64,000 nucleotides of DNA from a virus. A model generated the notes under the pieces. The model saw nothing but the letters and a program-made list of their open reading frames with translations. It searched no databases and was not told where the DNA came from. The DNA is taken from positions 159,177-223,176 of the IMG/VR virus record IMGVR_UViG_3300028392_000029; one strand, 5' to 3'. The translations under genes were made by a program, and so were the position numbers. Below, one piece after another: positions 1 to 55,188 of this stretch. The stretch's first letter is position 1; each line of letters begins with the position of its first letter.

Positions 1-395
1 TTATTGCCAACCAGTCGACCTAGAAAGTCTTGAGGATCATATGATCCAGCATGCCACAGGCCATGTGTAACTACTGGAATATTCAATAGCTCACTCATGT
101 ACTTTAAGTTGATGATGCCAGGGTGCCAAGCGTCAGTAAACAAAAAATGATCCCCAGGCTTAACTGCTCCGGAGCAAAATAAACGACCCATCTGCTCAAC
201 TTGACTAGCTTTATATATGTTAGTTCCACCAAAATTGAGAAAAGCGCCAGGGGTGGTAGCAGTCGGAATATCTGTAGGTCCGGAAATAATTTGAACATTG
301 TGTCCTGCCTTTTTAAGTAACGCAGGTACATGAGTCTTCCATTGACCCGTGTACCTTGTCTCAACTGATTCTAAGTCGACTAAGAATACGTTCAT
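1..395 (-). CDS. Conserved phage protein of unknown function, 3' end cut by window edge
   Basis: An open frame runs from an ATG at 395 to the window edge without a stop, giving at least 131 residues that begin MNVFLVDLESVETRYTGQW. The visible part alternates beta strands and helices (VFLVDLES near residue 3, NVQIISG near residue 34, HFLFTDAWHP near residue 84, PVVTHGLWHAGSYDP near residue 109), a Rossmann-like or glycosyltransferase-B-like pattern. I recognise it as a type common in T4-like cyanophages but know no assigned function. Its ATG overlaps the stop of the upstream gene (TAATG), so it is probably translationally coupled to it. The glycosyltransferase idea is inference only. Confidence 0.75.
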   Translation of the reverse strand, partial: MNVFLVDLESVETRYTGQWKTHVPALLKKAGHNVQIISGPTDIPTATTPGAFLNFGGTNIYKASQVEQMGRLFCSGAVKPGDHFLFTDAWHPGIINLKYMSELLNIPVVTHGLWHAGSYDPQDFLGRLVGN

Positions 396-1055: not shown

Positions 1056-1627
1056 ACAGTTTCTTCAAAGAGTGAGGTATAAGTTGATATAGCCATGTTT
1101 TCAAGTGTTTTCATATCTTCATCACTTAGTCTAAAAGAATAAGATTTAGACTTCGGTAAATGCACTTGTTCAAAATATCCGTAGAAACCTTCATAAGGTG
1201 TATACCCGATATTTTCATTCATTGTAATCAATGTTTTAGCATTGTTATATGCTTTTTCTATCAGTGCTTGAATGTGCGGAGCAGAAAAATCGTAAACTCT
1301 TGCTTCGATAATCACTCCGCCTTTAATTTTAATTCTTAACTGTTGTTGAAACTTTTTCCATACATGGGAATTCTTGTAGTCATTATTAATAATGTCTTCA
1401 GCATGCATATCTGCAATAGTTTGCGCACTAGTTGCATCAACATCTCGAGTTTTTACTTCAAGACCGTATACTAATATGTCTGCGCCATGACCTCGATTAA
1501 TAGGAACACCCATAGATTCAAGTAATGCTTCGACGGCTCTACCTGCATATCCGCCAGCACTTGCTGGTACTTTTTTGCCAATTAGTTGATCAGCAATTTT
1601 AAATACTTTTACTTTTGCCTTTATCAT
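1052..1627 (-). CDS. Putative PD-(D/E)XK-type endonuclease
   Basis: This 191-residue protein has a motif characteristic of the restriction-endonuclease fold: Asp50 (GHGADILVYG), then Glu57 and Lys59 in LEVKTR, preceded by a helix (GYAGRAVEALLESMG) with an acidic residue. That is the PD-x(n)-ExK arrangement used to bind Mg2+ in MutH, Sau3AI and phage-type nucleases. The spacing and the GADI...EVKTR wording resemble MutH/Sau3AI-like enzymes more than lambda exonuclease. It overlaps both neighbours by four bases (ATGA), so it belongs to the 2389-to-1 operon. Near a DpdA-like gene, a nuclease that discriminates modified from unmodified DNA is an attractive idea, but that is inference. Confidence 0.65.
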   Translation of the reverse strand: MIKAKVKVFKIADQLIGKKVPASAGGYAGRAVEALLESMGVPINRGHGADILVYGLEVKTRDVDATSAQTIADMHAEDIINNDYKNSHVWKKFQQQLRIKIKGGVIIEARVYDFSAPHIQALIEKAYNNAKTLITMNENIGYTPYEGFYGYFEQVHLPKSKSYSFRLSDEDMKTLENMAISTYTSLFEETV

Positions 1628-2148
1628 TTGATAACTTCATCGTTTTTATATTGAGACCAGTCTGTAAACTTACTTCTATCCATTAGCGTATGTAGACTGT
1701 GGGACCATACACCGGGATTAGTTGCCTTAAAATCTTTGTCATCTATTTTAAGCATTGTATTATAATTCCACAATTTAATGTAAGGAATTGGCACTCTTAT
1801 TTGCGGAATAAAGTTGTTGTAGTCATTCAATCCACCGTCATTAAACTCTTCTACAGCACTTAATGGAATATCTAGACTGCATATATAACCTTCTCCTAGG
1901 AAGTATTCAATCATTTCTTCCCATTTTTTCCAACCAGCATAGTCGTTGAATACTGGATTAAAACTGTGATTTGCACCAAAGAAAATATGCTCGCAATCAT
2001 TGTTCACTGCATGAAATGCAATTTGATCAATTTGTTGAATACCTGTAACAAACAAAGTTTTTAATCCGTATGCAGGAGTATGTTCAATTTCTGTGCCAAC
2101 AAAAAATGTCACTTGCTCGCTTACACCAGTTGTATAATCACGTTTCAT
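1624..2148 (-). CDS. Conserved phage protein of unknown function
   Basis: This 174-residue protein (MKRDYTTGVSEQVTFFVGTE) is of a type I associate with T4-like cyanophages. Visible features are strand-helix alternation (TLFVTGIQQIDQIAFHAV, HIFFGANHSF), a histidine in GANHSFNP, and an acidic segment (DIPLSAVEEFNDGG) that could form a small metal site. None is diagnostic. It overlaps the nuclease-like gene downstream by four bases and the BPSL0761-like gene upstream by eleven, so all three are probably translated from one message. No function is claimed. Confidence 0.7.
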   Translation of the reverse strand: MKRDYTTGVSEQVTFFVGTEIEHTPAYGLKTLFVTGIQQIDQIAFHAVNNDCEHIFFGANHSFNPVFNDYAGWKKWEEMIEYFLGEGYICSLDIPLSAVEEFNDGGLNDYNNFIPQIRVPIPYIKLWNYNTMLKIDDKDFKATNPGVWSHSLHTLMDRSKFTDWSQYKNDEVIK

Positions 2149-2389
2149 TCTTTTCTGCCTTCGATCGTTCGTACACTTTAAACATTCTAGTTACATCTTC
2201 TATACGTTCAGCAAAATGCTCAGGAGCACCTCGAGCCGCCGCTTTCATATCATATTCTTCGGGATAGTGTCTTAAACAAGCTCGAGCACCGTCTTTGATT
2301 GCTTTTGGAACTCGAGGAGTAGTCAGGATCTCTAATAGAAATCTTTTAGTTTGTACTACTGCTCGATATCTTTCATCTGGTAACGTCAT
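2138..2389 (-). CDS. BPSL0761-like small phage protein
   Basis: This 83-residue protein begins MTLPDERYRAVVQTKRFLLE and contains the Pro-Arg-Val-Pro, ACLRHYP and AARGAPEHF segments typical of the small BPSL0761 family found in phages and prophages of Gram-negative bacteria. Its function is unknown. It is the first gene of the operon running to the left edge. The ATG at 2389 follows a TATAAT hexamer (2396-2401) by only six bases, with no Shine-Dalgarno sequence, so the message may be leaderless. The family assignment is from recall of the sequence type. Confidence 0.75.
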   Translation of the reverse strand: MTLPDERYRAVVQTKRFLLEILTTPRVPKAIKDGARACLRHYPEEYDMKAAARGAPEHFAERIEDVTRMFKVYERSKAEKNET

Positions 2390-2395
2390 ATTTGT

Positions 2396-2420
2396 ATTAT
2401 ACAGTGATTGTAACTAAAAT
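2396..2420 (-). promoter_or_regulatory. Candidate sigma70-type promoter upstream of 2389
   Basis: On the minus strand a perfect -10 hexamer TATAAT occupies 2396-2401. The upstream region holds only a weak TTGATT-like -35. The predicted transcription start falls at or within a base or two of the ATG at 2389, which would make the transcript leaderless. Confidence 0.4.
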
Positions 2421-3640
2421 CAATCGTTTTGGCCAAGTTCGTCAAATATGAACGGCGAACCTTTAAAATAATTATATCCAAAAAACTCATCCATAATAGA
2501 TAAACTATGTGCTGAAAACAATATTGGGGGACCGTTTGCAGGTAATCCCATATCATATGCACGTTGGTTATAGGCCATTAGTTTTCTAAACTCGATATCT
2601 CCAGCTAGATTATCTTTTGAGTTTTGACTAGCTTGCCGCCAAAATTCTGTATCAAAATTACTACCACCGTGATAGATATAGTTAATAATACGTTCTAAAG
2701 TCTGTGCTAATCTAACTTGTTCAGCGTTGGCTTCTTCTTGATTCATTTGACCTGTAACATACTTAAAAATAATACCACATACGTTTGTATAGTGGTTAAT
2801 CGATGTTGCACTAATTGGTTCAAAGAATATAGCACGATTGCCGTTCTTGATAACTCTGTTATCAACTAATTTAGTAGTATAATAGGGTTTGAATTTATAC
2901 TCTTTAGTATCTAATTCGTCTATAGTTATTTTTAGCATTTCAGCCATGTCAGCTTTTGCATCTTCAACAGTAGTGATTGTGTCGTTAAACAAATAACCAT
3001 ATGTTTTTCTACTAGTTAACGGAATTCCAAACATCCATCCATTCTTGGTAGCAAAGTGTTCTGTGTACTGAATAGGATCAAATCTTTCAAAGCTATGTAC
3101 TAGACATCTGTTTAGAATACTGCAAGTACTCATATGATAGTCTTCAGAGTAGTCTGTAGGGAAACCTCTGCAATCTATAACATAATCAAATTCTTCATTG
3201 GTTCCATTTATTTCTACAATAGCTTTATCAGAATTATTAATAACATTAGTTACTGTGCCTTCAATTATGGAAAACTTTTGCGGCCAGCATAGAGCTAATC
3301 TTTCAAATACAAATTCTTTTAATTTAAAATTATTAAAATGTACAGCTACCCCGCCCTGTAGCAATGGGTTCAACCATTCCCACTTACGCCAGTTAATATA
3401 CTTTGTTCCAAATTTAAGTGTGCTATCTAATTTTGGAGTATCTTCAAGAGTTGTAAATCGTGTACCTTTTTCCAGTAAGCCAATAAATCCAGGATTAGTA
3501 CTTTCGCCAATTCCTAAAATAGGAATAGCTGGGTCATACAGTGAAACAATGTCCCATTCATTAGTAAGTGTTGAGCAAAGGTGCGACAATGTTAGCACCC
3601 CAGCACTACCTACTCCTAGTACACCAATACGTTTCTTCAT
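2420..3640 (-). CDS. Flavin-dependent (tryptophan-type) halogenase
   Basis: This 406-residue protein has the hallmarks of the FAD-dependent halogenase family. It has a dinucleotide-binding GxGxxG at residues 9-14, the GES turn at 45-47, a Lys in LKFGTKY (Lys76) at the place of the catalytic Lys that carries hypohalous acid in PrnA/RebH, and a Glu in FFEPISATS (Glu274) matching the conserved active-site Glu. The WxWxIP motif is altered to WMFGIP (202-207). Cyanophages are known to carry such enzymes (for example the VirX1 iodinase type). The ATG overlaps the stop of the DpdA-like gene (ATGA), so the two are translationally coupled. The substrate cannot be read from sequence; a free aromatic, a peptide or a modified base are all open. 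Confidence 0.85.
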   Translation of the reverse strand: MKKRIGVLGVGSAGVLTLSHLCSTLTNEWDIVSLYDPAIPILGIGESTNPGFIGLLEKGTRFTTLEDTPKLDSTLKFGTKYINWRKWEWLNPLLQGGVAVHFNNFKLKEFVFERLALCWPQKFSIIEGTVTNVINNSDKAIVEINGTNEEFDYVIDCRGFPTDYSEDYHMSTCSILNRCLVHSFERFDPIQYTEHFATKNGWMFGIPLTSRKTYGYLFNDTITTVEDAKADMAEMLKITIDELDTKEYKFKPYYTTKLVDNRVIKNGNRAIFFEPISATSINHYTNVCGIIFKYVTGQMNQEEANAEQVRLAQTLERIINYIYHGGSNFDTEFWRQASQNSKDNLAGDIEFRKLMAYNQRAYDMGLPANGPPILFSAHSLSIMDEFFGYNYFKGSPFIFDELGQND

Positions 3641-5262
3641 TTAACTTCTCCCTCTAGCTCGTCTAGTTTAGACATTTGATCTTCAGAAAACTCTCCATCT
3701 TCTACTTCAATCTCTGCTGTGCTTGTTCCTACTTCTTCAAACAAATTAGTAAACATTGATTGTGAGTTTAGTGTTTTCTTACCTGTAGCACCTCGAGTTC
3801 CAATAATACTCATCCAGAATCTGCTGTATTCTTCTACCACAGCATCTGCGGTGCCCCGGTCACTAGTTGCAAAGATAGCTTCGATTACATCTTTAAAATA
3901 TAATCTATCAAACTTTTCTTGTACTAGCATATTAGGACAACTGCCTAAATCATATTGTCGATTAGCTTCTTGTACTGCGTTCACATGCATCCAAACATTA
4001 TGACCCATCATAACAGCATAGGTAAAACTATCCCAACTTGTTCTATTACTGACTTTACCTAGTTTGTTAACGTCCGGCATTACTGTCCAGTGTGCGGGAT
4101 TATACGGATCTAGGATTGTTCCGGGTGGAACATTTGGATTTGGAGTACCAGCGTTGTAGATACAAATTTCATTCATAAGAACACCGTCCATAATTGGACT
4201 AGTTGTAAACTTAGGAAATATTTTATCCTGTATTACTGCGTCTTGGAAGAGTCTAGTATCTGTTGCGTATTTCTTGTCGTCAGCAGAAGCCTGCATACGG
4301 TAGACCCATTTTGTCCTATCGTCTGTTTCGACATTAGTATAGATTTGTCCGTTTGCTGTTGCAAGGAATGGACTTGCGCAGTCAAAAGAGATGGTAAAGT
4401 TTTCATTATGGTATTTCCTAACAGCACGTTGAATATCGGTTAAAAGAACTGCCCACTCTAACTTAGAGGTGCCTAGGAAGTGCATCCAATCATGTTGACC
4501 CTTTTCAAGGAGCCCATCGAATCGTAATGCCACTAATCTCTTTAGTACAAGGTGGATGTCACACATATTCTGCCCACCCATACCCCAACCGTTAAATGCA
4601 CGATCGCCGTATTGCGAGCGATCACAGTAACGTTTCATTCGTTGATACCAATCTTCGGCATCTGTATGCGTTTCACCTTGTAGTACGTTTAAGAACTTAC
4701 AGTTACCATTGCGATTATTAACAAAGTAATCGTTATTGATATATGTGCCTTGCACAGCCTCTGCATATGAACTAATGCCAGTTGCCGCAACACCTGCTGG
4801 ACTACGAGCAACCCAAGCTGGGATATCAAGACCCATGCCGTAGTCCATTAGTGTGTCCATCCAAGTAAGAACTTGCTGTCGCTTCTTCATAGCTTTAGGA
4901 CAGTTAGGATCTTTCCAGTCGGCTGGCCAAACACCTTTACCAATCTGGAATCCGCCTGAGTCACCTAATACCCAACTAGTACTACGATTACGATTTCGGA
5001 ACATGTCCTCGCTTTCATCTTGTTTATTCAAATCAAGATTAGCATGGCCTGCCGAATATAAACAGTGGTCATAATAAAATGCACCTTTATCTGGATCAAG
5101 ATAGTTAAGACTTTCAACACCGTTTTTAAAACTTTTAGGAATACGTGTAGGATCTACGTAATTGCTATAGCGTTGTTTTCCGATAAAGGTGCTATAAAAG
5201 CCGCTAGTTGCTGGCAAGAATACAGCATAGTCGTTTTGTGTTGCGGTAAGATTTCTATTCAT
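3637..5262 (-). CDS. dpdA: DpdA-like DNA-guanine transglycosylase (TGT superfamily)
   Basis: This 541-residue protein carries the signature of queuine/archaeosine tRNA-guanine transglycosylases. It has LGDSGGFQIGKG with Asp101, LQGE near residue 194, GMGG at 227-230, and SFDCASPF with Asp294 at the position of the catalytic nucleophile (TGT: FDCVLP). In phages this family includes DpdA, which swaps guanine in DNA for a 7-deazaguanine precursor. I prefer DpdA to a tRNA enzyme because the gene is phage-borne, longer than bacterial Tgt, and divergent. A QueD gene for precursor synthesis is present at 57159-57608. The acidic C-terminus (last ~30 residues) is unusual. It lies between a membrane protein gene and the halogenase, coupled to the latter. 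Confidence 0.82.
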   Translation of the reverse strand: MNRNLTATQNDYAVFLPATSGFYSTFIGKQRYSNYVDPTRIPKSFKNGVESLNYLDPDKGAFYYDHCLYSAGHANLDLNKQDESEDMFRNRNRSTSWVLGDSGGFQIGKGVWPADWKDPNCPKAMKKRQQVLTWMDTLMDYGMGLDIPAWVARSPAGVAATGISSYAEAVQGTYINNDYFVNNRNGNCKFLNVLQGETHTDAEDWYQRMKRYCDRSQYGDRAFNGWGMGGQNMCDIHLVLKRLVALRFDGLLEKGQHDWMHFLGTSKLEWAVLLTDIQRAVRKYHNENFTISFDCASPFLATANGQIYTNVETDDRTKWVYRMQASADDKKYATDTRLFQDAVIQDKIFPKFTTSPIMDGVLMNEICIYNAGTPNPNVPPGTILDPYNPAHWTVMPDVNKLGKVSNRTSWDSFTYAVMMGHNVWMHVNAVQEANRQYDLGSCPNMLVQEKFDRLYFKDVIEAIFATSDRGTADAVVEEYSRFWMSIIGTRGATGKKTLNSQSMFTNLFEEVGTSTAEIEVEDGEFSEDQMSKLDELEGEVK

Positions 5263-5613
5263 TTAGATCCAATGTTGTACTAGAACCATAAGACTTAACC
5301 AAGCCCACATGGTATTGAAACCGACTAGCGTTGGTAATGACTTTTTACGACTAGCCCAAATAAGTGTTACACTAGTTAACAAGGTTAGGTAGTATAATTG
5401 CCAGATTTGAATTCCAAAGATTAAACCTGGAATGATAATGATTGCCTTGGCCAGCCAACTGACAAATTCTACAGTATTGTAGCCAGTCCAATATTCTTTT
5501 GTAAACCACATCATATAGCAGTCACGCATATTTGCCCAACCGCTATGTGAGTAGCAAATTACCATTAACACTAGCCATACACCTACAGCTAATAAAATTT
5601 GATCAGTAGTCAT
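5263..5613 (-). CDS. Small multi-spanning membrane protein, unknown function
   Basis: This 116-residue hydrophobic protein has about four predicted membrane segments: residues 5-23, roughly 50-68, 70-87 and 98-114. It is rich in Trp and Tyr, with a basic loop (SRKKSLP) before the last helix, which suggests an inner-membrane protein. There are no motifs I can tie to a transporter. The C-terminal half vaguely recalls PnuC-type proteins, but the length and conserved residues do not support that. It sits tightly between the sliding clamp gene and the DpdA-like gene, with one-base contacts at both ends. Confidence 0.7.
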   Translation of the reverse strand: MTTDQILLAVGVWLVLMVICYSHSGWANMRDCYMMWFTKEYWTGYNTVEFVSWLAKAIIIIPGLIFGIQIWQLYYLTLLTSVTLIWASRKKSLPTLVGFNTMWAWLSLMVLVQHWI

Positions 5614-6344
5614 TATTTGCTTAGTGCAGGTAAAATATAATTGTATTCAGCAACACCGCTGTCTACAGTAATTTGCATGGCACCTGAGTCCGAAATCTTC
5701 ATAGTCAAATCTCCTGGCAATGCTAAAATACTTTGTACTTGTTGTACAGGCCATGACAATGTCTGACGCATTTTTCCAGTAATTCCAGATTGGAAAGTAA
5801 ATGATCCAGCATGTGTGCTTGCATCGCCGAAACTAAACACTAGATCGCTGCCGTCAGTTTTAACTTGGAAACTAGATTCTTCAGTATGAGCTGCCGCCTG
5901 GTATTTTAATTTTTGGATCGATGCGACTGTAGGTTGTACTTCGACATCCCAGCTAACACCTTTGAATTTGACGGTTTTAAGTTTTTCATTAATAACTTCG
6001 TTATTCATAAAACGATAATCGTTTTCAAAGTCACCGGTCGCATTTTGAAAATGCAAGCCTGTTGGAACTTCTTCACCGTTACGTTGTTGTTTAACAACTT
6101 TAATACCGGCGCCTTCTTTGTACTCCGGGCATTTCAAATGCAAATCTAATTTATTAAGTTGTGGCATTCCAAACACACCTTCGAAATTATCAACTGGGTT
6201 ATGTGTTTTTGCACTGAAAATAACTGAACGGTCTTCAGCCATTGATTCAATTGCGGTTTCTTTGTCGCTGGCACTTACTTTAACTAAAGGCAGGAAGCCC
6301 AGGTTGTGTGTATGTGCTACTAGGTCTTGTAAAAAGTCTTTCAT
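5613..6344 (-). CDS. 45: Sliding clamp, T4 gp45-like
   Basis: This 243-residue protein matches the T4-type sliding clamp, the trimeric ring that tethers the polymerase and also activates late transcription. The start at 6344 (MKDFLQDLVAHTHNLGF) is preferred over an ATG four codons upstream because GGAG lies six bases ahead of it. Segments such as GVFGMPQLNKLDLHLKCPEY and the beta-rich C-terminal half ending EYNYILPALSK fit the family. A perfect sigma70-type promoter lies just upstream (6365-6393). Late promoters of the T4 type elsewhere in the window agree with a gp45-dependent late programme. Confidence 0.9.
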   Translation of the reverse strand: MKDFLQDLVAHTHNLGFLPLVKVSASDKETAIESMAEDRSVIFSAKTHNPVDNFEGVFGMPQLNKLDLHLKCPEYKEGAGIKVVKQQRNGEEVPTGLHFQNATGDFENDYRFMNNEVINEKLKTVKFKGVSWDVEVQPTVASIQKLKYQAAAHTEESSFQVKTDGSDLVFSFGDASTHAGSFTFQSGITGKMRQTLSWPVQQVQSILALPGDLTMKISDSGAMQITVDSGVAEYNYILPALSK

Positions 6345-6364
6345 ATGATTCTCCATGTTTAATG

Positions 6365-6396: not shown

Positions 6397-7170
6397 TTAT
6401 TTTCTTATTTTGTTGTTGTATTTCACCACTTCTTCTACAACGGTTACAGGGGTATTTAGGTTTTTTGCATAATGTATGAAAGCATTTGTGTCTTTAGGAA
6501 AACACGCTCCGCCAAACCCAAACAATCCATCGGATCCAGGCACGTTCATATGGCTTAATCCAATTCTAGTATCTGCAGAGACTAACTGTTTGACTAATTC
6601 ATAGTCTGCACCGTTGGCCTGACATACTTCATAAATTTGATTAAAAAACGCTACCTTTGTACTTAAAAAACTATTAATTGAATATTTGATCATACTAGCT
6701 TCCGTAATACTACACGGGAGAAAGAATTCGCATTTTTTAAGAACAGATGAAAATAAGTTTTCCCAGAAACTATTGAAATCTTCTCCGCCGATAATCATAT
6801 ATTCTTGATTTAAGAAATCTTCATCAGCAGTTGCCGCACGTAGAAATTCTGGACTATAACAAATATGATGATTAGGATAATCGACTAATATTTGAGATAG
6901 CTGATCCGGGGGTATAGTTGACTTAATTAAAACTGGTAAATTATCCGGCGTATTTTCTAATACTGATCGTATCTGTGTGTCGTCACAACTACCGTTGGGC
7001 AAACTTGGTGTACCTACACATATGATAACACCTTCTCCTGTTTTGTAATCAGATACACTACTAGTGTTGATCTTTGGATCAACAATGTGAATAGTATGCT
7101 CAGCCGCCAATGCTAGACCAACCGCCTTACCTACAAATCCATAACCTGCAATTATAATTTCTTTTTTCAT
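6397..7170 (-). CDS. UDP-glucose/GDP-mannose dehydrogenase family protein
   Basis: This 257-residue protein begins MKKEIIIAGYGFVGKAVGLA, a classic NAD-binding GxGxxG turn (residues 9-14). It continues with ICVGTPS, YSPEFLRAA and MIKYSINSFLSTKVAFFNQIYEVC (read in parts), then GFGGACFPKDTNAF, where the Cys is the catalytic thiohemiacetal-forming residue of UDP-glucose 6-dehydrogenase. Cellular enzymes have ~390-450 residues. This one ends soon after the CFPKD motif, so the C-terminal nucleotide-sugar-binding domain is missing or reduced. The ATG at 7170 is used because the longer open frame overlaps the polymerase gene. It may alter host or phage glycans. The shortened length leaves activity uncertain. 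Confidence 0.82.
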   Translation of the reverse strand: MKKEIIIAGYGFVGKAVGLALAAEHTIHIVDPKINTSSVSDYKTGEGVIICVGTPSLPNGSCDDTQIRSVLENTPDNLPVLIKSTIPPDQLSQILVDYPNHHICYSPEFLRAATADEDFLNQEYMIIGGEDFNSFWENLFSSVLKKCEFFLPCSITEASMIKYSINSFLSTKVAFFNQIYEVCQANGADYELVKQLVSADTRIGLSHMNVPGSDGLFGFGGACFPKDTNAFIHYAKNLNTPVTVVEEVVKYNNKIRK

Positions 7171-7171
7171 A

Positions 7172-9841
7172 TTAGAACTCAAATAAACTGTTAAATGTGT
7201 TTTTTTCTTCTGTACTACGGACATCCCATTTAAGTACACCGATAAGATTTTCTAGTTTTTTATCTATAATGGCTTGTTCCATTTCAGTATGGTTAAAAGG
7301 CAAATCCTTAAACCATTGCGGCAATCTGAGCTCATCTACTGGATAAGCTACGCTTGTGAATCCCAAAGGATTGTCTTTAAGTTTGCAGACGATAACTTTT
7401 GCACCATCTGTAATAGCCATGCTATATTTGTCATCAAACATACGTTTAAGTGTGTTCCAATTAATGCTTGCACGAACATGCCCGGGCATATTAGCCTTAC
7501 CAGCCTTTACTTCCTTAGCCTGATATTCTGTAATGTTATTGGCACGTTTAGGACTACCTTTCTCCCAACCGGGACGAACTTTAAAACGTGTTCGGAATTC
7601 AGTGATGTGGGCTAGTACAGTATTTTCGTCAGCACCGGTTAGCACCAACTCAAGAACATCACTTAAAAAGTTTTGAATAAACTCAGGTGTATCACTACGC
7701 TTGAGATCCAGCCCCATGGCTTTGATCTTGCCAGGCTTGCCATCTACGTCTGCACGTTTGCCTTCTTTGTCATAATACAACACTGCATAGCGTTTCTTAG
7801 TAATAAACAGACCTTTAATTGCAACAATCTCACGACCAGCTTTGATAACTTCACCGCGTGACTTTGGCACATGGAATGTATCTAACATGAACTGTGGAAA
7901 GGTAGTATTAACTTCTTCACCAATCTGGTCATATAGCTGAACAACACTTTCTTTAGTCCAGGGAATAACTTTTGAATTGATATCTTTTTGCAGAGTTTTA
8001 TAAGCACTAAAATAGCACGAGTCTGTATCACCGTAAATAATAGCCTTGCCCCTGTAGTCATACTCGCCGGCCACAATCTCATTGACCTTGCCAGCCATGT
8101 GCTTGACAATTTGTCTGCCTGTCAGTGTGGTTGACTGCCCGATACGCTTGTCAAAGAATCTACAGCCACTATTAAGAATAGCACCATACAAACTGTTCAA
8201 GTTAATCTTCTTGACCAACTGACGTTTGTCCCAATATTCTTCTTCAATCTTGTTGCCTGCCTTGATAGCATCTTTTAGTTTGGCCTGCATCTCCTTACGT
8301 TCGGCATACCAACGTTTGAGCAAGCCGGGGATAATGCCTTCTGTTTCGTGTGTAAAGATAGTACCATTAGCACTTAACATCCACGGCTGATTGCTTTCAA
8401 ATATAAGTCTATAGACTTCCGCGGCACTGAGCACATCACTATCACCGTTTTGCCAATCAATAGTAATGTCTGTGCCAATTTGTTGTTCCATTACGGCTGT
8501 ATATTCTAGTGATCCGAAGATACCTTCCCATGCCGCCGCAAATGATTTACCTTTTCCAATTTGCGCTTCAATATAATCGTCAGTTAATGTCTGACGTAAT
8601 TGTCCAACAATAGTTTCCGGACCCATATTCAATGCACGAATGGCTGATGGGTAAAGACTATTAATATCTAGGGAACCAATCCAATCATGAATACCTTCTT
8701 TAGGGACAGCGACATACGCACCTGCGGCTCCTTCATTATCTTCTCGATCATCCATCTTAGTTCGATTGGGTACTTGGAATCCTCTTCGATGGGCTTCGTT
8801 GATAATTGCTTGCTCAGTTACAGCTACCGCACCCATTGTGGTCTGTAGCAACACAGTACACTCATGTGCCAGTGTGTTGGCAAGATCCATAAACTTTAGT
8901 TTCTTGTCTAGATCGTCAAGCAGTTTACAGTCGTTACGGTTGTACTCAATGAACGTTTTAAAGTCATTGTTGTATAATTGGTCGAGCGTACCTTCATATT
9001 GTGTTTTACGTTGACCTAGTTCATATTCCGCGATGGCGTCAAGTCTATAACTGTGGCGTTCTTCATACGTATACTTACGGTACAGCTCAAGATAGTCTAA
9101 GTGAACGCGACCAATGTAGTCATAGGTTACACTATCACGACCAAACTTTTCATATTCTCTGCGTTTAGGAAATTGGTCAAATAAACAAAAACGTCGGGTA
9201 TCTTCTTTGCTTAGTGCTTTAGTAACACGATTAGTTGTGTAGGGAATATCAAAACCTTCACTATTCCACCCACTTAGTACATCAGCATCTTTAATCAAAT
9301 CAAGAAAAACATCTAGCATTTCTGCTTCTGTTTTATAAAGCATTGTGTTAGGGAAGTCTTTAACTTGCTCTAACGCTTCTTCCATGGTAATAGTCTTTGG
9401 AGGAACTGCTAGACATACCATGGTTTCCATCCACTGTAGGTAGACAGCAATCGCAGTAATTGGCATGAACGCATCGTCTGGACTTGCATAGCCACGCTCT
9501 GGATCAAAGTCTACCTCAATATCGAAAAACGCTACGTTTAGTTTAGGAGCATCTTGATTAATGTAGTTTTCGCTTAGGCAAACAAAGATGGGATTAATAT
9601 CTGCTTCAAATAATTGCTTACCTGAATTAATTGCTTGTTCTTTGCGTAGTTCTTTTGTATTTTTACAGATAACCCTGTTAAGTGGGTCGCCGTAGATTGA
9701 TTGATATTTGCCCTTGGGGTCTTTGTAGTAAAACGTGTGTTTGACAGGTATGTCACGGAACTCACGCTCACCTTTCTTATTGCGTTCGACAACTTTAATA
9801 ACATCGTTATTACGGTCAAACCATGCATCTACATAGCTCAT
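7172..9841 (-). CDS. 43: DNA polymerase, B family, T4 gp43-like
   Basis: This 889-residue replicative polymerase has a 3'-5' exonuclease domain with FFDIEVDFD (Asp107, Glu109) and polymerase motif A SLDINSLYPSAI near residue 385-395. Motif B KKINLNSLYGAIL follows, and motif C IYGDTDSCYFS near residue 604 holds the two catalytic Asp residues. Length and order agree with T4 gp43 (898 residues). The C-terminal peptide (TFNSLFEF) is in the position where gp43 binds the clamp. The ATG at 9841 follows AAGGAG. Neighbours are dsbA upstream and the UDP-glucose-dehydrogenase-like gene downstream. No intein or intron interruption is seen. Confidence 0.95.
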   Translation of the reverse strand: MSYVDAWFDRNNDVIKVVERNKKGEREFRDIPVKHTFYYKDPKGKYQSIYGDPLNRVICKNTKELRKEQAINSGKQLFEADINPIFVCLSENYINQDAPKLNVAFFDIEVDFDPERGYASPDDAFMPITAIAVYLQWMETMVCLAVPPKTITMEEALEQVKDFPNTMLYKTEAEMLDVFLDLIKDADVLSGWNSEGFDIPYTTNRVTKALSKEDTRRFCLFDQFPKRREYEKFGRDSVTYDYIGRVHLDYLELYRKYTYEERHSYRLDAIAEYELGQRKTQYEGTLDQLYNNDFKTFIEYNRNDCKLLDDLDKKLKFMDLANTLAHECTVLLQTTMGAVAVTEQAIINEAHRRGFQVPNRTKMDDREDNEGAAGAYVAVPKEGIHDWIGSLDINSLYPSAIRALNMGPETIVGQLRQTLTDDYIEAQIGKGKSFAAAWEGIFGSLEYTAVMEQQIGTDITIDWQNGDSDVLSAAEVYRLIFESNQPWMLSANGTIFTHETEGIIPGLLKRWYAERKEMQAKLKDAIKAGNKIEEEYWDKRQLVKKINLNSLYGAILNSGCRFFDKRIGQSTTLTGRQIVKHMAGKVNEIVAGEYDYRGKAIIYGDTDSCYFSAYKTLQKDINSKVIPWTKESVVQLYDQIGEEVNTTFPQFMLDTFHVPKSRGEVIKAGREIVAIKGLFITKKRYAVLYYDKEGKRADVDGKPGKIKAMGLDLKRSDTPEFIQNFLSDVLELVLTGADENTVLAHITEFRTRFKVRPGWEKGSPKRANNITEYQAKEVKAGKANMPGHVRASINWNTLKRMFDDKYSMAITDGAKVIVCKLKDNPLGFTSVAYPVDELRLPQWFKDLPFNHTEMEQAIIDKKLENLIGVLKWDVRSTEEKNTFNSLFEF

Positions 9842-15214: not shown

Positions 15215-15508
15215 TTATTTTCCTACAGGTTTTTCGCCAGTTAAGTACGGCTTACTAAACCACAGTTGAAACCATTCTGGGGTTCCGGGACGAATATGAT
15301 GCTTACGCTCTAGCTCTTGTTTGCTCATACCAGTAACACTGATATTACTGCCTTGATTAGCACGGTATTCGTGTAGTCTAGCTTCGCCACCTAACCCGCC
15401 TAGTCCTGCTAGTGCTTTCATTTCGTGTATAGGATCACTCGGATCTAAATAGCAGTCATCTGAACTATCTTGATTTAAATCCTGCGTAGTAATTCTATAC
15501 TGTTTCAT
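15215..15508 (-). CDS. Small phage protein, unknown function
   Basis: This 97-residue protein starts at 15508 (MKQYRITTQDLNQDSSDDCY). This ATG is chosen because it makes an ATGA overlap with the Dps stop and has GAGG nine bases upstream; the open frame itself begins eight codons earlier. It contains a short Gly-rich stretch (ALAGLGGLGGEARLHEY) and the sequence HHIRPGTPEWFQLWFSKPYL, where the aromatic-rich tail may bind a partner. It is translated together with the Dps-like gene. No function is known. Confidence 0.65.
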   Translation of the reverse strand: MKQYRITTQDLNQDSSDDCYLDPSDPIHEMKALAGLGGLGGEARLHEYRANQGSNISVTGMSKQELERKHHIRPGTPEWFQLWFSKPYLTGEKPVGK

Positions 15509-15945
15509 TTTAAACTTGACCTCAGCATCCAACTGTGCTTCTTATGTGCATCCTGTCGATCAGCTAAGAAATTACTCAGCCCGTGGTCACCATGCGCTTC
15601 AGCCATATCAAACGTAATGCGAAATATCTCAGCCATTCTGTCACTATCTGTTAATAATTCTTTTAGCATACCGCTCCAATCTGGTACATGATTTTCATCT
15701 TCTACCACAGTCAGCATACTGAATTTTTGTAAACTAGCCGGTGTATAAATCTGTAGAGCACGTAGATGTTCCGCAAACGGATCAATTGCACCATATACTT
15801 CCTCGTATATGGTTTGAAACAGTTCGTGTAACTGACCAAACAACGGTCCTTCTACATTCCAGTGAAAGTTATGCGCTTTTAGATAAAAACTAAATTCACT
15901 AGCAAAAGCTGTTTTTAATGATAAGTGATATTTGTCGTGTTCCAT
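15505..15945 (-). CDS. dps: Dps-like ferritin (DNA-binding protein from starved cells family)
   Basis: This 146-residue protein has the Dps/ferritin four-helix pattern: FYLKAHNFHWNVEGPLFGQL, then YEEVYGAIDPFAEHLRAL, and a C-terminal helix GDHGLSNFLADRQDAHKKHSW. The intersubunit ferroxidase ligands of Dps are present: His28, His40, Asp55 and Glu59. Dps proteins form 12-mers that oxidise Fe(II) with H2O2 and protect DNA. The Lys-rich N-terminal DNA-binding tail of E. coli Dps is lacking. It sits in an operon of putative capsid cargo but has no capsid-targeting-like N-terminus itself. With SOD and a haem peroxidase in the same window, an oxidant-protection role is likely. Confidence 0.87.
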   Translation of the reverse strand: MEHDKYHLSLKTAFASEFSFYLKAHNFHWNVEGPLFGQLHELFQTIYEEVYGAIDPFAEHLRALQIYTPASLQKFSMLTVVEDENHVPDWSGMLKELLTDSDRMAEIFRITFDMAEAHGDHGLSNFLADRQDAHKKHSWMLRSSLK

Positions 15946-31028: not shown

Positions 31029-31613
31029 TTAGTATTCGCCGCTCAGTTTGATATATACGTTAGCTCCGGCATCAACAGACCATGCTTCAATGACTTCAAG
31101 TTTAGTTGAACCAATTGCACCAACTGTGAATGGGCTAAATCCAGTTGCAAAACGCACAACTCCGCCGTTGGCAGTGGCAAATACTGGTGTTCTAACAGCA
31201 ATAGTGTCGCCTTTCAAAATAACTCTAATAATTCCGTATGCAGGTACCGCAGGCCAGCCGGTAAAAGTTAATGTAGCATTTCCTGCGAGTGTAAATTGTT
31301 GTATAGATCCGTTGGCCAAGTTAATATTTGCAGTAGTAGATACAGTTCCACCGGGGTAGAATATACCGTAAAATTGATTATGTGTACCGTTTGTGATAGA
31401 ACTTTGTAACAGATTATTTACTACAGGAGTGGTACCAGTTGCTAGATCTGCTTTTAATAGTGTATTAGTTTGTAGTGCAGTAATTTCAGACTTGGCTACT
31501 CCTAATCCCGCTGAAATAGCAGTAAAGTTGTTACGAAATCCCTGACTATCGTTGTCCTGCCCTGCTACAGGGTAAGTTGTGTTAATTGAGATATAGTTTA
31601 TTTGACTTGTCAT
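31029..31613 (-). CDS. Tail or fibre-associated structural protein
   Basis: This is a 194-residue protein. The N-terminal YPVAGQDNDSQGFRNNFTAI is a version of the module present at the start of three other fibre proteins here ([G/N]-x-D-[S/G]-x-[G]-[D/F]-x-[R]-x-x-F-x-x-[V/I/A]-N). The C-terminal half is a beta-rich Gly/Thr/Ala sequence ending in EAWSVDAGANVYIKLSGEY, like phage fibre tips. It lies directly downstream of the peroxidase fusion gene and has its own late promoter (31644-31651). Confidence 0.75.
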   Translation of the reverse strand: MTSQINYISINTTYPVAGQDNDSQGFRNNFTAISAGLGVAKSEITALQTNTLLKADLATGTTPVVNNLLQSSITNGTHNQFYGIFYPGGTVSTTANINLANGSIQQFTLAGNATLTFTGWPAVPAYGIIRVILKGDTIAVRTPVFATANGGVVRFATGFSPFTVGAIGSTKLEVIEAWSVDAGANVYIKLSGEY

Positions 31614-34600
31614 ACGGTTATCCTATCATTTCTAAATATAAGGTATTTATCGCCTAGATAACCACTGACAGAATCTATTGTATATCTGTCTACAGTATAA
31701 TCTAATACTTGAAAATCAAATTTACTAAATTTGATGTTTAGCAAAATATCGTTAGCAGTTCCTACTTTACAGAAGCAGATAGGAATAGCTAGGGTATACC
31801 CTTGTTCTTGTTTTTGCCCAGTTTGTATAGTTCTCATCCAAAGCGGCAAATAATTGCGCTCACTTAGTCCTACACCGGATAATCTTGATTGCCAGTTTGC
31901 TATACTATTGGGGAATATCGTATTTGGATTAGGATTAGAGACTTCGTATCCTGTACTGTCGGCTGTTATTATAGGCTCTGGTCGAACAGAATTTGGAGCA
32001 TCTAGATTTAAGACTGCGGCAGAGTTATTCCAGAAATTATTGCTACTATCAACTGTTATAGCATCTGAACTTATTCCAAATTTATTAATTATCTTATTTG
32101 GAAGTTTTCCACTCGCTGGACTTAGCGGGTCTATCATGTTTATATAAATTACTTCGTATAGATCCAACCCTGTAGCAGGATCTACAGCCCTTGACGATGA
32201 CACAGAGCCAAACTGGAATCTTTTACGTTTGTGATTCAATCCCATAGCCCCAATATATGCCGCTGCCTCTTTAGTTTCAATCCCGCCATATACTAGCATT
32301 GATAATGATGATTGAATACCAAAGTTTTGATCATTTATTCTATAAATGCTACTGGGTGTAAAGATGGTTGAGTCATTAATAAATCCCTTCCATATGGCTC
32401 TTTGGTCTTGTTTTAAGAATGGTCGAACTACTATGTTACTATAAGAAGTAGTATTAGGTGTATCAATGGTCAACGTAAATGTTCTAGTACGGGAGCTGTA
32501 ACCAAATTGATCTCGAGCTTCAACAGTAAACTTATACGTATAGTCAAACGTTGCGATACCTTTATCAAACGTAGTGGCACTGGTATCAAATCTAATCAAA
32601 CCCAATGAACCGTTTAACGGATTATAATACTGATTAACTTTACCAATAATTTCTCCGTCAAGATTTAATGTTAGTCCAGGCGGTAGTGCTCCGTCTACGA
32701 TAGAATAGATTACAATAGAATTAGGAACAGATGATACTGCGCTGATGTTTAATGTTGAATAGTAATCTGCATGCAATGTTTCTAAAATACTATTAGTTTT
32801 CCACGTAACAGTACTGTCAATCTCACCGATGATGGTTACTGTAAATGTTTTATATGCAACTGTAGTTTCGCCTTTCTCTCCAATTCTTGTAGCAGTCAGT
32901 GTAAAAGTATAGAGCTTGCTGATAGCAGGTTGATATGGAACTATGCCATATACCTCGCCAGTGCCTGCATCAAATGTAGTACCTGGCGGAAGTTTGCTTA
33001 ATGATCCCATATAAAACGGAACCATATCGGGAAGTGTCATTACTAGCCCAGTTGTTAGAGTTAATCGATATGCGCCACCGCCTAAATCAGCTACTACGGA
33101 AATTCTATATAGTTCACCAGTTGCATTTGGAATATAGTTTGCAAAACTAATGTATTGACCAAATAGCGGCGGACTTGATGCGTTAGTAATAGTTAGACTA
33201 TGACTGCCGATAGTGTTATCTAGATTAGTTAGTTGCTTTGTAATTGCTCGTATTTCTTGATTTGTTGGAGAAAGATTAAAAATAACATTACTATTGTCGT
33301 ATAAGACAATTGGCAGGGTGATATAGTTGTTTGCTCTAAGAACACCTAAGTTTGAATCATTAATCCATACTGGTTCGCGTAAGTATGTTGCATCAGCAGT
33401 AAAATTCCCAGCGCCACCGTCTAACGTTGTTGAGTCTGCACGGAATTGATCTGTACCTACAACAAATATTTTAAAAATTCGTTGAGCATAATTGACACCA
33501 TCAGTTAGTGTTACACGAAATTGATAATTAGAATTGATACTGTTTGGCGGATGTAACGGACTATTGTAGTCATAAAACACTCCATCATACTGATAACTGT
33601 CAAAACCGTCATTGGAAGTAGTACCAAAATCAAATGCCACGCCATCGTAATAGCCATCGTCGTATGTGCCTGAGCCGTCGATCGCTGTGATTTTATAAGT
33701 AGGTAGTATAAATCCCGATAGTCGTCCTGAACTTGACAGCGTAAGTCCTTTAGGTAGTACTCCGTCATCACTGGCTATAAAGTATGTTAGTTTACTACCG
33801 ACTACAGTGTTCAAATCAAATGCTTCAATTTGATAATCAACATGTGTATCGTCAAGTACATATAATTGCTGGTGGACTCCGATCGGCAATGGTCCAGCGG
33901 CAGTTACAAAAACTGGTATATTAGAACCTGTAATAGTTATAGTAAAAGTTCTATCGGCTATATCTGTTCCGTTTGTAGCTCTGATACAAAATTTATAAGT
34001 TGTATCGTTACTAACAATGTATGGACTTCCAGTAATTGTGCTACTTTGTAGTATCAATCCAGGCGGTAATGATCCACTAATCACTGTAAATGTTATTCCA
34101 GCAGTATCGGACAATGGAGGAGGACTAGTGCTAGGTGATCGAGCAACTATGCTTGGAACAGCGCCTGAAATAAGGTCTGCACGTTCTACTGCTACAAATG
34201 CATCAGCCTGCATGTGTACTGTATCAGTATTGCGTAAAATTATATCAGATAAGGTAGCACTATTAATCCAAGTTAAATCTGTTGGATTCCATGGTTGATT
34301 TTGATACCAAGATTGATCACCATCTCGTAATCGAATCATTTGATCTGCTATGATAGCACGGAATGTCGGGCCTACCATTGCTCCTGGATAGCGATCCTCT
34401 GCAAGACCACCAACCCATAGATCTATGTCATTGATATTAACATAAGCTGACTGTAATGCATTGGCTACAGTTACATCGCTAGTAATTTGACTAAAGCTAG
34501 TATATGCTGAAAATCCTAATGCTATACGCATTTGATTTAAACTTGGAAGACCTAAGTCACGCCCACGCTGTATATTTGTTGCGGCAAGATCTAATGCTGC

Positions 34601-35803
34601 CGGAGGATCGTTAAGCAAGTTACGTAAGTCTTCAATAATATATACATCTAATTTGTTAGATATATCGCTGGCTAATTTTCTTAAGAATCCGTTTGCGCCA
34701 CCGTTGCGTTCATACTGTGCAGGTGTTAAGAAAAACGCTTGTCCTAAAGTTAAAGATTCTGTAATGTTGCCTGCTTCATCTACACGATCTTGTGCGCCAG
34801 ACACTATGCTATGGCCAAAGCGTAGTGCCGCGGCAGCAAATTCTATTTTTATACTTGCATCGACTTCAGGTTTAAATCCAGTGTAAGCAGATATCGCATC
34901 ATTACCGATAATCTTTGGTAACCATTCTTTGTAAGTAATGACTTGTTCTTCTGCAATAACAATATTGCGGGCACGTTGATATAACTGTTCACCCGTCCAA
35001 GATGGATTAGCCGCACGTAGTCGATCTACATGCCAGTTATGTTCTCGTATAAACAGTGTCTGAATTGAAGTTAAATCTGGATTTTCAGTTCCACGGGGAT
35101 CGCCGAACAAAAATGATCCATTAACGATGGGACCATATTGTCCGTTACTAGATGTTAACAATTTGCCAGTAGTGGCGATCGAACCGCCTTCTCGTAATAA
35201 TACTGGATTAGTAAATCCACTAACAGGCGCAACACCGGGAGGGTATGCAATACCATAAACTACACTACCATCGATCCACCCTGTTACGTCATTGATCGGC
35301 AGTGCGGCAATCCCATTGATACCTGTACCGGGTGCAACTTGCGCACGAGTTACCGGTATGTGACTACCCGGTGTTAAATTAGTGTCGCCTGCTGGAACTA
35401 TAACATCAATATTAGCACCGCCAGTTCTTTCACTAGCCAGCTCATGAGTTATAAATTGACCCCATGCGTACATAAATCCACTATAGCCAGTTGGATCAGC
35501 AGTTTCACCTTCATTTACTTGATCCCATACTACTAAATTACTAACTGTGCGAGCATTGGCTAGATCAGTACGCATGGCATGTAAGCCATCTGTATAGCTG
35601 TTTACTGGGTATCGGGCAAATGCACTACCAGCAGAATTTCTTAATGGTACTGTTGGGTGATGACCTGTGCCGTCATATGACGGTGGAGGAACACCGTTAA
35701 ACGCCGCCGGAGGTATTAACGGTAATGGTAAGTTAACCGATACTTGTTCAGGGAATGATCCAAGACTGTAACCAGAACGTTGAGTCCAGATGTTTAGTGA
35801 CAT
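31610..35803 (-). CDS. Animal-type haem peroxidase fused to Ig-like repeats, virion fibre-type protein
   Basis: This is a 1397-residue protein. Residues ~60-530 are a complete animal haem peroxidase (peroxidasin/myeloperoxidase class) domain. Distal His120 sits in WGQFITHEL (Gln116), and GDPRGTEN supplies catalytic Arg237 and a haem-linking-type Glu240. LFIREHN is at 251-257, and proximal His331 is in ALRFGHSIV. NIQRGRDLGLP (410-420) holds the Asn that pairs with it, and RLRDGDQSWY closes the domain. The Asp that forms the second haem ester in MPO is Thr119, and the Met that forms the sulfonium link is Asn241. From ~560 on there are about four putative-Ig (He_PIG) modules, such as GSLPPGLILQ and GALPPGLTLN. 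It lies in the fibre block, so I infer it is exposed on the particle. It has no signal peptide. Confidence 0.88.
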   Translation of the reverse strand: MSLNIWTQRSGYSLGSFPEQVSVNLPLPLIPPAAFNGVPPPSYDGTGHHPTVPLRNSAGSAFARYPVNSYTDGLHAMRTDLANARTVSNLVVWDQVNEGETADPTGYSGFMYAWGQFITHELASERTGGANIDVIVPAGDTNLTPGSHIPVTRAQVAPGTGINGIAALPINDVTGWIDGSVVYGIAYPPGVAPVSGFTNPVLLREGGSIATTGKLLTSSNGQYGPIVNGSFLFGDPRGTENPDLTSIQTLFIREHNWHVDRLRAANPSWTGEQLYQRARNIVIAEEQVITYKEWLPKIIGNDAISAYTGFKPEVDASIKIEFAAAALRFGHSIVSGAQDRVDEAGNITESLTLGQAFFLTPAQYERNGGANGFLRKLASDISNKLDVYIIEDLRNLLNDPPAALDLAATNIQRGRDLGLPSLNQMRIALGFSAYTSFSQITSDVTVANALQSAYVNINDIDLWVGGLAEDRYPGAMVGPTFRAIIADQMIRLRDGDQSWYQNQPWNPTDLTWINSATLSDIILRNTDTVHMQADAFVAVERADLISGAVPSIVARSPSTSPPPLSDTAGITFTVISGSLPPGLILQSSTITGSPYIVSNDTTYKFCIRATNGTDIADRTFTITITGSNIPVFVTAAGPLPIGVHQQLYVLDDTHVDYQIEAFDLNTVVGSKLTYFIASDDGVLPKGLTLSSSGRLSGFILPTYKITAIDGSGTYDDGYYDGVAFDFGTTSNDGFDSYQYDGVFYDYNSPLHPPNSINSNYQFRVTLTDGVNYAQRIFKIFVVGTDQFRADSTTLDGGAGNFTADATYLREPVWINDSNLGVLRANNYITLPIVLYDNSNVIFNLSPTNQEIRAITKQLTNLDNTIGSHSLTITNASSPPLFGQYISFANYIPNATGELYRISVVADLGGGAYRLTLTTGLVMTLPDMVPFYMGSLSKLPPGTTFDAGTGEVYGIVPYQPAISKLYTFTLTATRIGEKGETTVAYKTFTVTIIGEIDSTVTWKTNSILETLHADYYSTLNISAVSSVPNSIVIYSIVDGALPPGLTLNLDGEIIGKVNQYYNPLNGSLGLIRFDTSATTFDKGIATFDYTYKFTVEARDQFGYSSRTRTFTLTIDTPNTTSYSNIVVRPFLKQDQRAIWKGFINDSTIFTPSSIYRINDQNFGIQSSLSMLVYGGIETKEAAAYIGAMGLNHKRKRFQFGSVSSSRAVDPATGLDLYEVIYINMIDPLSPASGKLPNKIINKFGISSDAITVDSSNNFWNNSAAVLNLDAPNSVRPEPIITADSTGYEVSNPNPNTIFPNSIANWQSRLSGVGLSERNYLPLWMRTIQTGQKQEQGYTLAIPICFCKVGTANDILLNIKFSKFDFQVLDYTVDRYTIDSVSGYLGDKYLIFRNDRITV
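31644..31651 (-). promoter_or_regulatory. T4-type late promoter for the 31613 gene
   Basis: GATAAATA on the minus strand, inside the 3' end of the peroxidase fusion gene, lies 31 bases ahead of the ATG at 31613 and before an AGGA site. It matches seven of eight bases. Confidence 0.55.
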
Positions 35804-54056: not shown

Positions 54057-54344
54057 ATGTATATTGGAACTGAATTTCGAGAAAACCACTATGTGCGCAC
54101 CAGCAATCGTGGTAAGACACACACCTATAGTCGTAAAAAAACCGTACTGGTATTACGGTGTGATTGCTGTGGAGAAGTATTTAATCGAGACAAGGGCAAT
54201 ATGGACCCTAATCGATTAAGCAACAACTATTATCATGTGTGTGGTAATTGTGATGCTAAAAAGTTTGCTCAAAGCAAAGGGATTGAAAGTAAGCATGTTT
54301 GGGACATGCCTGTAAGCAGTCTTAAGACGCTAGGCCAACTCTAG
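54057..54344 (+). CDS. Zinc-ribbon-like small protein
   Basis: This 95-residue protein has two cysteine pairs, LRCDCCGEVF near residue 34-38 and HVCGNCDAKK near residue 61-66. The arrangement (CxCC, ~24 residues, CxxC) suits a zinc ribbon or zinc knuckle and could bind nucleic acid. The N-terminus (NHYVRTSNRGKTHTYSRKK) is basic. No HNH or nuclease motif is visible. It reads on the plus strand and overlaps the end of the SOD gene tail-to-tail by 23 bases. Confidence 0.7.
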   Translation: MYIGTEFRENHYVRTSNRGKTHTYSRKKTVLVLRCDCCGEVFNRDKGNMDPNRLSNNYYHVCGNCDAKKFAQSKGIESKHVWDMPVSSLKTLGQL

Positions 54345-54882
54345 CACTGATTACATTCCAGTTGATAATTTTCCACTGATTAGATAGATAGCTTTTTTTA
54401 TCGGCTTGGTAGTCTAGAGCCCAGGCATGCTCCCACCAATCTACCAGCAATACAATATCCTGTCTGATTTCGTGATTTTTGATAGTCTTAATTTTTCCGT
54501 CACGAGCCAAATACACCCATCCTGAACCTTGGATTTTCATAGCTTCTTTTTCAAAGGCATCAATAAACTTATCAAAATTTTTAAAGTGTTTATCGATAAA
54601 TTCACCGGACGACCCGCTAGGCTCGTTTGATCTTGTAGGTTTCTGAAATTGCGTAAAGTATATATTATGCAAAAAAGCCCCAGCTTCGTTGAAGTCAGGA
54701 TCCCCTTCTCCTTTATTAAAACGCTTAACATATCCGCCGTACAGTTCACTATAGTGATAGTCTATGGTTTCTTCACTCATGCTGGGTTCTAAATCATCTC
54801 TTGCATAGGGCAACTTGGTATGAACCAACGTCTTGGGGGTTTTACCCTCGTTCAGCGTGATGTGTTTAATAAAGTTGTACAT
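54322..54882 (-). CDS. sod: Fe/Mn superoxide dismutase with N-terminal extension
   Basis: This 186-residue protein has all four metal ligands of Fe/Mn-SOD: His43 (EETIDYHYSEL), His72 (AGAFLHNIYF), Asp148 and His152 (LLVDWWEHAWALDY). The LPYARDDLEPSMS start of the SOD fold lies at residue 24, so ~20 residues (MYNFIKHITLNEGKTPKTL) precede it. That leader ends in LNE-G, a T4 prohead-protease-like site. The message is probably leaderless: the late element GATAAATA (54888-54895) lies only five bases ahead of the ATG. The enzyme converts superoxide to H2O2. A phage SOD with a capsid-targeting-type leader would be unusual. Confidence 0.9.
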   Translation of the reverse strand: MYNFIKHITLNEGKTPKTLVHTKLPYARDDLEPSMSEETIDYHYSELYGGYVKRFNKGEGDPDFNEAGAFLHNIYFTQFQKPTRSNEPSGSSGEFIDKHFKNFDKFIDAFEKEAMKIQGSGWVYLARDGKIKTIKNHEIRQDIVLLVDWWEHAWALDYQADKKSYLSNQWKIINWNVISARVGLAS

Positions 54883-54924: not shown

Positions 54925-55188
54925 ATGTTAAAATTTATCAAAAGTTTTTTTAAGAAATCAGATCCAGTAGTGGCAGAGCCAGTTCCATATAAAGTCGAAG
55001 TTGCTCCGGTAGCAGAACTAGCACCAGTTGCTGTTCAAGCTGTAGAAGCAATGGTAGAGTCTATTATGCCAGCTGGGACAGAAGCATCAATGGCCGCACC
55101 TGTTACTAAATCTAAGAAAGCACCTGCGGCTAAGAAAGCACCAGCCGCAAAAAAGCCACGTGCTCCTAAAAAGCCTAAAGCAGAGTAA
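54925..55188 (+). CDS. Small Lys/Ala/Pro-rich protein, histone-H1-tail-like
   Basis: This 87-residue protein has an N-terminus (MLKFIKSFFKKSDPVVAEPV) with an amphipathic helix, an acidic/Val/Pro-rich middle, and a C-terminal ~25 residues of KKAPAAKK-type repeats typical of histone H1 tails and bacterial Hc1-like proteins. It could bind DNA in the head or nucleoid. It is driven by a perfect late promoter with a strong GGAGG site. Its 3' end overlaps the uvsE end by 14 bases. Confidence 0.72.
   Translation: MLKFIKSFFKKSDPVVAEPVPYKVEVAPVAELAPVAVQAVEAMVESIMPAGTEASMAAPVTKSKKAPAAKKAPAAKKPRAPKKPKAE

Follow-up and report, generated by a model that had tools for sequence, protein, structure and literature searches.

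A divergent, probable DpdA-like transglycosylase in the proposed deazaguanine module of a large freshwater phage, with a halogenase-family gene as its probable optional cargo

The closest described relatives of the locus reported here are found in Vibrio phage nt-1, in the PA5oct group of Pseudomonas phages and among cyanophages. For mycobacteriophage Bipper, in which only QueC is missing, Hutinet et al. proposed 7-carboxy-7-deazaguanine (CDG) as a possible precursor (PMC6884629). The jumbo-phage survey of Iyer 2021 reported that PA5oct has a system for the synthesis and incorporation of deazaguanine, and suggested that the halogenase clusters of cyanophages make or decorate metabolites or capsule (PMC7824862).

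Here, we analysed a stretch of 64,000 bases from a large freshwater phage (the window), which covers positions 159177-223176 of a linear virus record of 223,176 bases. A sequence-only reading had proposed that a flavin halogenase (HAL) and a DpdA-like DNA transglycosylase (DPD) are linked in function through a 4-base overlap of their genes, with QueD in the same genome for the precursor. Both ORFs and the ATGA overlap lie on the minus strand at the positions given there, and QueD is indeed encoded in the genome. The features discussed below are:

1-395, minus strand: 3′ part, with the stop, of a glycosyltransferase-like gene (whole gene at 158474-159571 of the parent record)
1624-2148, minus strand: DN174, a 174-aa conserved protein of the DPD module
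2138-2389, minus strand: conserved 83-aa gene, directly after DPD where HAL is missing
2420-3640, minus strand: HAL, 406 aa, ATG start, a short phage protein of the flavin-dependent-halogenase family
3637-3640, minus strand: ATGA stop/start overlap of DPD and HAL
3637-5262, minus strand: DPD, 541 aa, ATG start, TGT fold, putative DpdA-like DNA transglycosylase
5263-5613, minus strand: 116-aa predicted membrane protein, variably present among relatives
5613-6356, minus strand: sliding-clamp/PCNA-like protein (phrog_12062)
6397-7239, minus strand: UDP-glucose dehydrogenase-like protein, variably present among relatives
7172-9841, minus strand: family B DNA polymerase (PolB)
57159-57608, minus strand: QueD (6-carboxytetrahydropterin synthase; PTPS 6e-14, QueD-like PHROG 3e-39)
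Parent record 153015-153860: QueE, outside the window on its left side
Parent record 154581-155318: FolE, outside the window, 4 to 6 kb beyond the left edge together with QueE
Parent record 156587-157078: guanine/xanthine-type phosphoribosyltransferase (PRTase)

Elsewhere in the window, an ORF among tail-fibre-like ORFs (31610-35803, minus strand) encodes a 1397-aa protein that combines a haem peroxidase domain of the animal type, matched over its full length (PF03098, E 3e-114), with Ig-like He_PIG domains, which is unusual for a phage. An Fe/Mn superoxide dismutase (54322-54882), a Dps/ferritin-like protein (15505-15945) and a UvdE UV endonuclease (55175-56278), all on the minus strand, are a set against oxidative and UV damage.

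No family model of Pfam, PHROGs or NCBIfam matches DPD, a profile search of the PDB returned no match and a PF01702 search of the genome found no tRNA-guanine transglycosylase (TGT). The blank with PF01702 is no argument against DPD as a TGT, since DpdA2 of nt-1 likewise has no Pfam match. An AlphaFold2 model of DPD based on a 56-sequence alignment reached a mean pLDDT of 88.7, compared to 51.5 for an earlier model based on 18 near-identical sequences; deeper sampling thus raised the quality. The top PDB matches of the model are all TGTs (Foldseek E 8e-8), and 305 residues align with 2ash (VIA-align Z 20.6, rmsd 4.4). In a viral structure library, the model matches R9TGF0 of Vibrio phage nt-1 (E 1e-9), which is its sole nt-1 match and has 464 residues, the same length as DpdA2. 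The model also matches a protein of Motura phage that carries the name tRNA guanine transglycosylase. By its modelled fold, DPD is a TGT-fold protein.

Two residues, D101 (GDSGGFQ) and D294 (SFDCASPF), are invariant across the 56 DPD sequences, and both motifs align with nt-1 DpdA2. Based on what is known of TGTs, we take them to be the catalytic aspartates, with the FD of the D294 motif holding the nucleophile. The CxCxxC zinc motif of TGTs was not seen in the DPD sequence or alignment, where a single Cys (C367) and an HNV motif remain. An hhalign comparison of DPD with DpdA2, for which the template was a single sequence, gave a probability below 3%. Since sequence profiles by themselves do not join DPD to DpdA2, we describe DPD as a divergent DpdA-like family rather than as an established member of a named subfamily. 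The label DpdA-like itself is well supported by the fold, both aspartate motifs, the likeness to nt-1 DpdA2 and the conserved block of genes around DPD.

This block comprises PolB, the sliding clamp, DPD, DN174, the glycosyltransferase, FolE, the phosphoribosyltransferase and QueE. For 139 distant DPD loci, each sharing 27-56% identity with its own query, we inspected flanks of 7 kb (a redundant set, with some records present twice). Among the matches listed, the clamp is found at 131 of the 139 loci, PolB at 127, DN174 at 125, a GT4 glycosyltransferase at 99, FolE at 65, PRTase at 47 and QueE at 30, while HAL is found at none (0/139). The contig frequencies here and below describe related, partly redundant contigs among the matches listed (best 80 kept) and are no census. 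DN174 has no family or PDB match.

The block extends to cultured phages. In Pseudomonas phage PAC2 (PA5oct group), the order is DNA polymerase, PCNA, DPD, GT4, PRTase and QueE; the gene at the clamp position is annotated as proliferating cell nuclear antigen, and the glycosyltransferase of the window phage is 44% identical to the PAC2 GT4 protein. In Vibrio phage 2.275.O, QueF, QueC and FolE are found near DPD.

In L110 (7477-9257) and in about 60 other contigs among the matches listed, the 83-aa gene and DN174 are separated by two paired genes, one for a Gfo/Idh/MocA-like oxidoreductase and one like zinc alcohol dehydrogenases; this pair may be part of the base-modification module. In QueE of the window phage, the third cluster cysteine is set apart from the second by a long insert (CNFKC ... 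GCDS). Synechococcus phage BUCT-ZZ01 (L105, 14844-17624) encodes FolE, QueD, PRTase and QueE in a single operon, and a DPD-family profile search of this phage gave no match, which leaves either another transglycosylase or a different route for its deazaguanine genes.

FolE, QueD and QueE are all present in the parent record of the window. A PF06508 search for QueC found no match in the 223 kb of this record, a linear fragment that may be incomplete. QueC is also missing from 14 of the 15 further long records with DPD, which reach 383 kb in length, the lone match among the 16 being partial and weak, and was not found in PAC2 or Phosso either. With QueC missing, the predicted phage-made precursor is CDG and not preQ0 or preQ1. 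Nonetheless, QueC may have been overlooked in the linear fragment, or may be supplied by the host.

In the mechanism that we propose, FolE, QueD and QueE would convert GTP to CDG. DPD, which is encoded beside the DNA polymerase and the clamp, would then replace guanine in newly made DNA by CDG or a compound derived from it. DN174 and the glycosyltransferase may process the base further and, as we infer, the guanine-type phosphoribosyltransferase may salvage the released guanine.

DPD shares its fold with the tRNA TGTs, so a role in tRNA modification of the queuosine or archaeosine type has to be weighed. We consider it quite improbable: in most of the loci among the matches listed, the genes for DNA polymerase and clamp are close neighbours of DPD, the structural likeness extends to nt-1 DpdA2, QueC, which both tRNA pathways require, was not found, and the zinc motif of the TGTs was not seen in the sequence. 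The TGT fold, the aspartate motifs and the presence of FolE, QueD and QueE in the same phage agree with the DpdA-like transglycosylase claimed earlier, and this very divergent protein probably exchanges guanine for a 7-deazaguanine in phage DNA.

HAL also belongs to the family first assigned to it, the phage flavin halogenases, with matches to Pfam Trp_halogenase PF04820 (4e-30) and phrog_2928 (2e-71). It has the flavin motif GVGSAG, of which G9, G11 and G14 are invariant in the family alignment, and a variant of the WxWxIP motif (GWMFGIP). Copies of HAL that are 89% identical show a dN of 0.07 and a dS of 0.93, and the gene is under purifying selection rather than dead.

In the flavin halogenases PyrH, Thal and PrnA, Lys79, Glu358 and Ser359 are common, and Lys79 of Thal is irreplaceable (PMC7948982). 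K76 of HAL corresponds to Lys79 of PrnA, and this catalytic Lys is invariant in 83/83 short relatives from phages. Where PrnA and Thal have their catalytic Glu (Glu346 and Glu358, respectively), the residue is Ser277 in HAL and Ser in every HAL found directly after DPD (slot HALs); in the wider short phage set, it is Ser in 38, Glu in 27, Phe in 13 and Thr in 3. With 406 aa compared to 538 in PrnA, HAL is the shorter protein by about 130 residues, and its local matches omit much of the Trp-binding parts. Accordingly, tryptophan is an unlikely substrate, and since HAL has neither the catalytic Glu nor much of the region that binds Trp, even halogenation is no more than a putative activity.

These features raise the possibility that HAL is a flavin oxidase or monooxygenase and no longer a halogenase, which would be compatible with a passenger role. 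We regard this as a tentative, minority option. All slot HALs have Ser in place of the Glu, and about two thirds of the short phage family have Ser, Phe or Thr there; the change of Glu to Gln has been reported to inactivate a halogenase (PMC8407142), and the protein is short with its Trp-binding parts largely outside the local matches. Against this stand the catalytic Lys, which is invariant in the family and irreplaceable in Thal, and the role assigned to the Glu, deprotonation of the indole NH, which may be needless for other substrates. Longer forms are also found: in L117, L122, L124 and L127, the HAL-like ORFs reach 641-657 aa through fusion to an additional C-terminal part.

The overlap of the two genes had been taken as a sign of linked function. 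An overlap of exactly 4 bases occurs in 20 of the 178 adjacent same-strand ORF pairs of the genome. Of 131 HAL-less contigs among the matches listed, 68 show a 4-base overlap of this kind between the 3′ end of DPD and another gene, and cyanophage homologues of HAL overlap by 4 bases with gp33 or talC. The ATGA overlap of DPD and HAL does not exceed what chance would give in this genome and is the default state of the junction. We therefore dismissed it as evidence of linked function.

Among 144 related contigs with a complete DPD-to-DN174 stretch, HAL directly follows DPD in 13 and is absent there in 131 (among the matches listed). The 13 contigs represent four lineages (the window type, 89-100%; L108; L109; and L110 with its near-copies). 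The pair thus occurs in at least four lineages and not in this genome alone. Contigs without HAL have one of several genes next after DPD: the 83-aa gene, an 88-aa gene, DN174 or an oxidoreductase pair.

On the DPD tree, at least four gains or losses of HAL are needed, and starred branches force every one of them. The slot HALs, by contrast, form a single clade on one side of one branch with 100% support. For this reason, we read HAL as mobile cargo: a single HAL lineage has entered or left the same DPD junction repeatedly. HALs of this clade are located only directly behind DPD among the matches listed. Relatives at <=53% identity sit in contigs without DPD, and 25 of the 26 HAL-bearing records searched have no DPD, the exception (L108) being a slot case. 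Recombination between conserved flanks is enough to explain the constant position of HAL; nonetheless, a dedicated partner would also occur only directly after DPD. A tie of HAL to the DPD subtype with an insertion was considered and dismissed, because most such contigs are without HAL.

Other halogenase-family genes are found in related records. In L207 and L208 (9725-11266), the oxidoreductase pair is followed, within the same block, by a different gene of the Trp-halogenase family, which is full-length (513 aa, E 8e-99). L134 and L135 encode a QueE that is 79-89% identical, with a HAL relative about 3 kb away, and the neighbourhoods of L115, L117, L119 and L122, judged by eye, contain full-length halogenases and 2OG-Fe(II)-oxygenase-like genes. 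The L065 (G008) record has four consecutive halogenase-family genes (495-536 aa) at 14.7-25.8 kb, more than 90 kb from DPD by the coordinates of that record.

The C7 of 7-deazaguanine is nucleophilic, pyrrole-like and open to electrophilic halogenation. HAL could thus be an optional tailoring enzyme that halogenates C7, for example with replacement of the CDG carboxylate, or oxidises the base before or after its insertion by DPD, and that is gained and lost as a variable decoration against host restriction. Several observations are consistent with such a role: among the matches listed, the HALs of one clade are confined to the junction behind DPD, where at least four lineages have them with a constant overlap; another halogenase lies within the same block in L207 and L208; a HAL relative is encoded about 3 kb from QueE in L134 and L135; the catalytic Lys is invariant (83/83); and decarboxylative bromination has a precedent in the flavin halogenase Bmp5 (PMC8407142). 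On the other hand, HAL is missing from more than 90% of the close and all of the distant DPD loci among the matches listed, the junction also accepts an unrelated 88-aa gene, recombination between the flanks accounts for the constant position, and Ser replaces the catalytic Glu. Taken together, we consider a tailoring role unlikely.

The most specific form of this idea is that HAL halogenates the deazaguanine 7-position, perhaps on CDG by a decarboxylative reaction, and that DPD inserts the product to give 7-halo-7-deazaguanine in phage DNA. We give it very little credence. We know of no halogenated DNA base, and a literature search on phage halogenases and DNA modification found nothing relevant. 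A halogenated DNA base in the HAL phage is possible but not supported.

We favour the reading, with a probability of roughly 0.6, that DPD is the transglycosylase of a 7-deazaguanine DNA-modification module and that HAL is an optional mobile passenger outside its core. The HAL clade would move between related phages into the junction of DPD and the 83-aa gene, probably through recombination in the flanks. HAL and DPD would be co-translated only because the genes at this junction are packed with 4-base overlaps. HAL itself would most likely halogenate or oxidise, by flavin-hydroperoxide chemistry, some molecule of the host or the phage that is not the DNA base.

Of the initial hypothesis, the DpdA-like transglycosylase, the halogenase family and the recurrence of the pair in at least four lineages stand, while the linked function is not supported and preQ0 and preQ1 are not the predicted phage-made bases. 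The transglycosylase is the more interesting half of the finding; the HAL half is optional cargo, with an overlap that carries no weight, and illustrates how misleading a 4-base overlap can be as a guide to function. The transglycosylase family is invisible to Pfam, PHROGs and NCBIfam, is widespread among aquatic and jumbo phages, and adjoins replication genes together with FolE, QueD and QueE and without QueC. The DNA of DPD phages is accordingly predicted to contain a carboxy-, plain or further-decorated (possibly glycosylated) deazaguanine, a prediction that is directly testable in the isolates PAC2 and PA5oct. Were the halogenated-base reading true, some phages would carry 7-halo-7-deazaguanine and their sister phages would not.

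Compared to known systems, the HAL of this phage resembles VirX1 of cyanophage Syn10 (6QGM) in being a phage-encoded member of the flavin-dependent halogenase superfamily. The match is weak (37 bits), VirX1 has 531 aa compared to 406, and its activating Glu, named in a review (PMC8407142), is Ser in HAL. Closer in length class are the short 'tryptophan halogenases' of the Kyanoviridae (S-SSM5, S-MS29 and S-ShM2; 31-38% identity). Like HAL, they have an ATGA overlap with the upstream gene; unlike HAL, they adjoin gp33 or talC, with no DPD nearby. The catalytic Glu is retained in S-SSM5, S-MS29, S-ShM2 and S-RIM4, whereas it is Gln in S-SSM7 and Ser in HAL.

DPD is like nt-1 DpdA2 (Hutinet 2019, PMC6884629) in its TGT fold, its DSGG.Q and SYD/SFD motifs and its invisibility to the Pfam TGT model, and both phages have deazaguanine genes in their genomes. 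The two proteins share about 22% identity, with an uncertain alignment, and nt-1 has QueC, whereas DPD sits in a PolB-clamp-GT4 block without it. The PA5oct/PAC2 protein is a true homologue of DPD (36% over 81%) and likewise stands beside PCNA, a glycosyltransferase, PRTase and QueE. Unlike the window phage, PAC2 has no HAL at this locus, and its DPD homologue is annotated as hypothetical.
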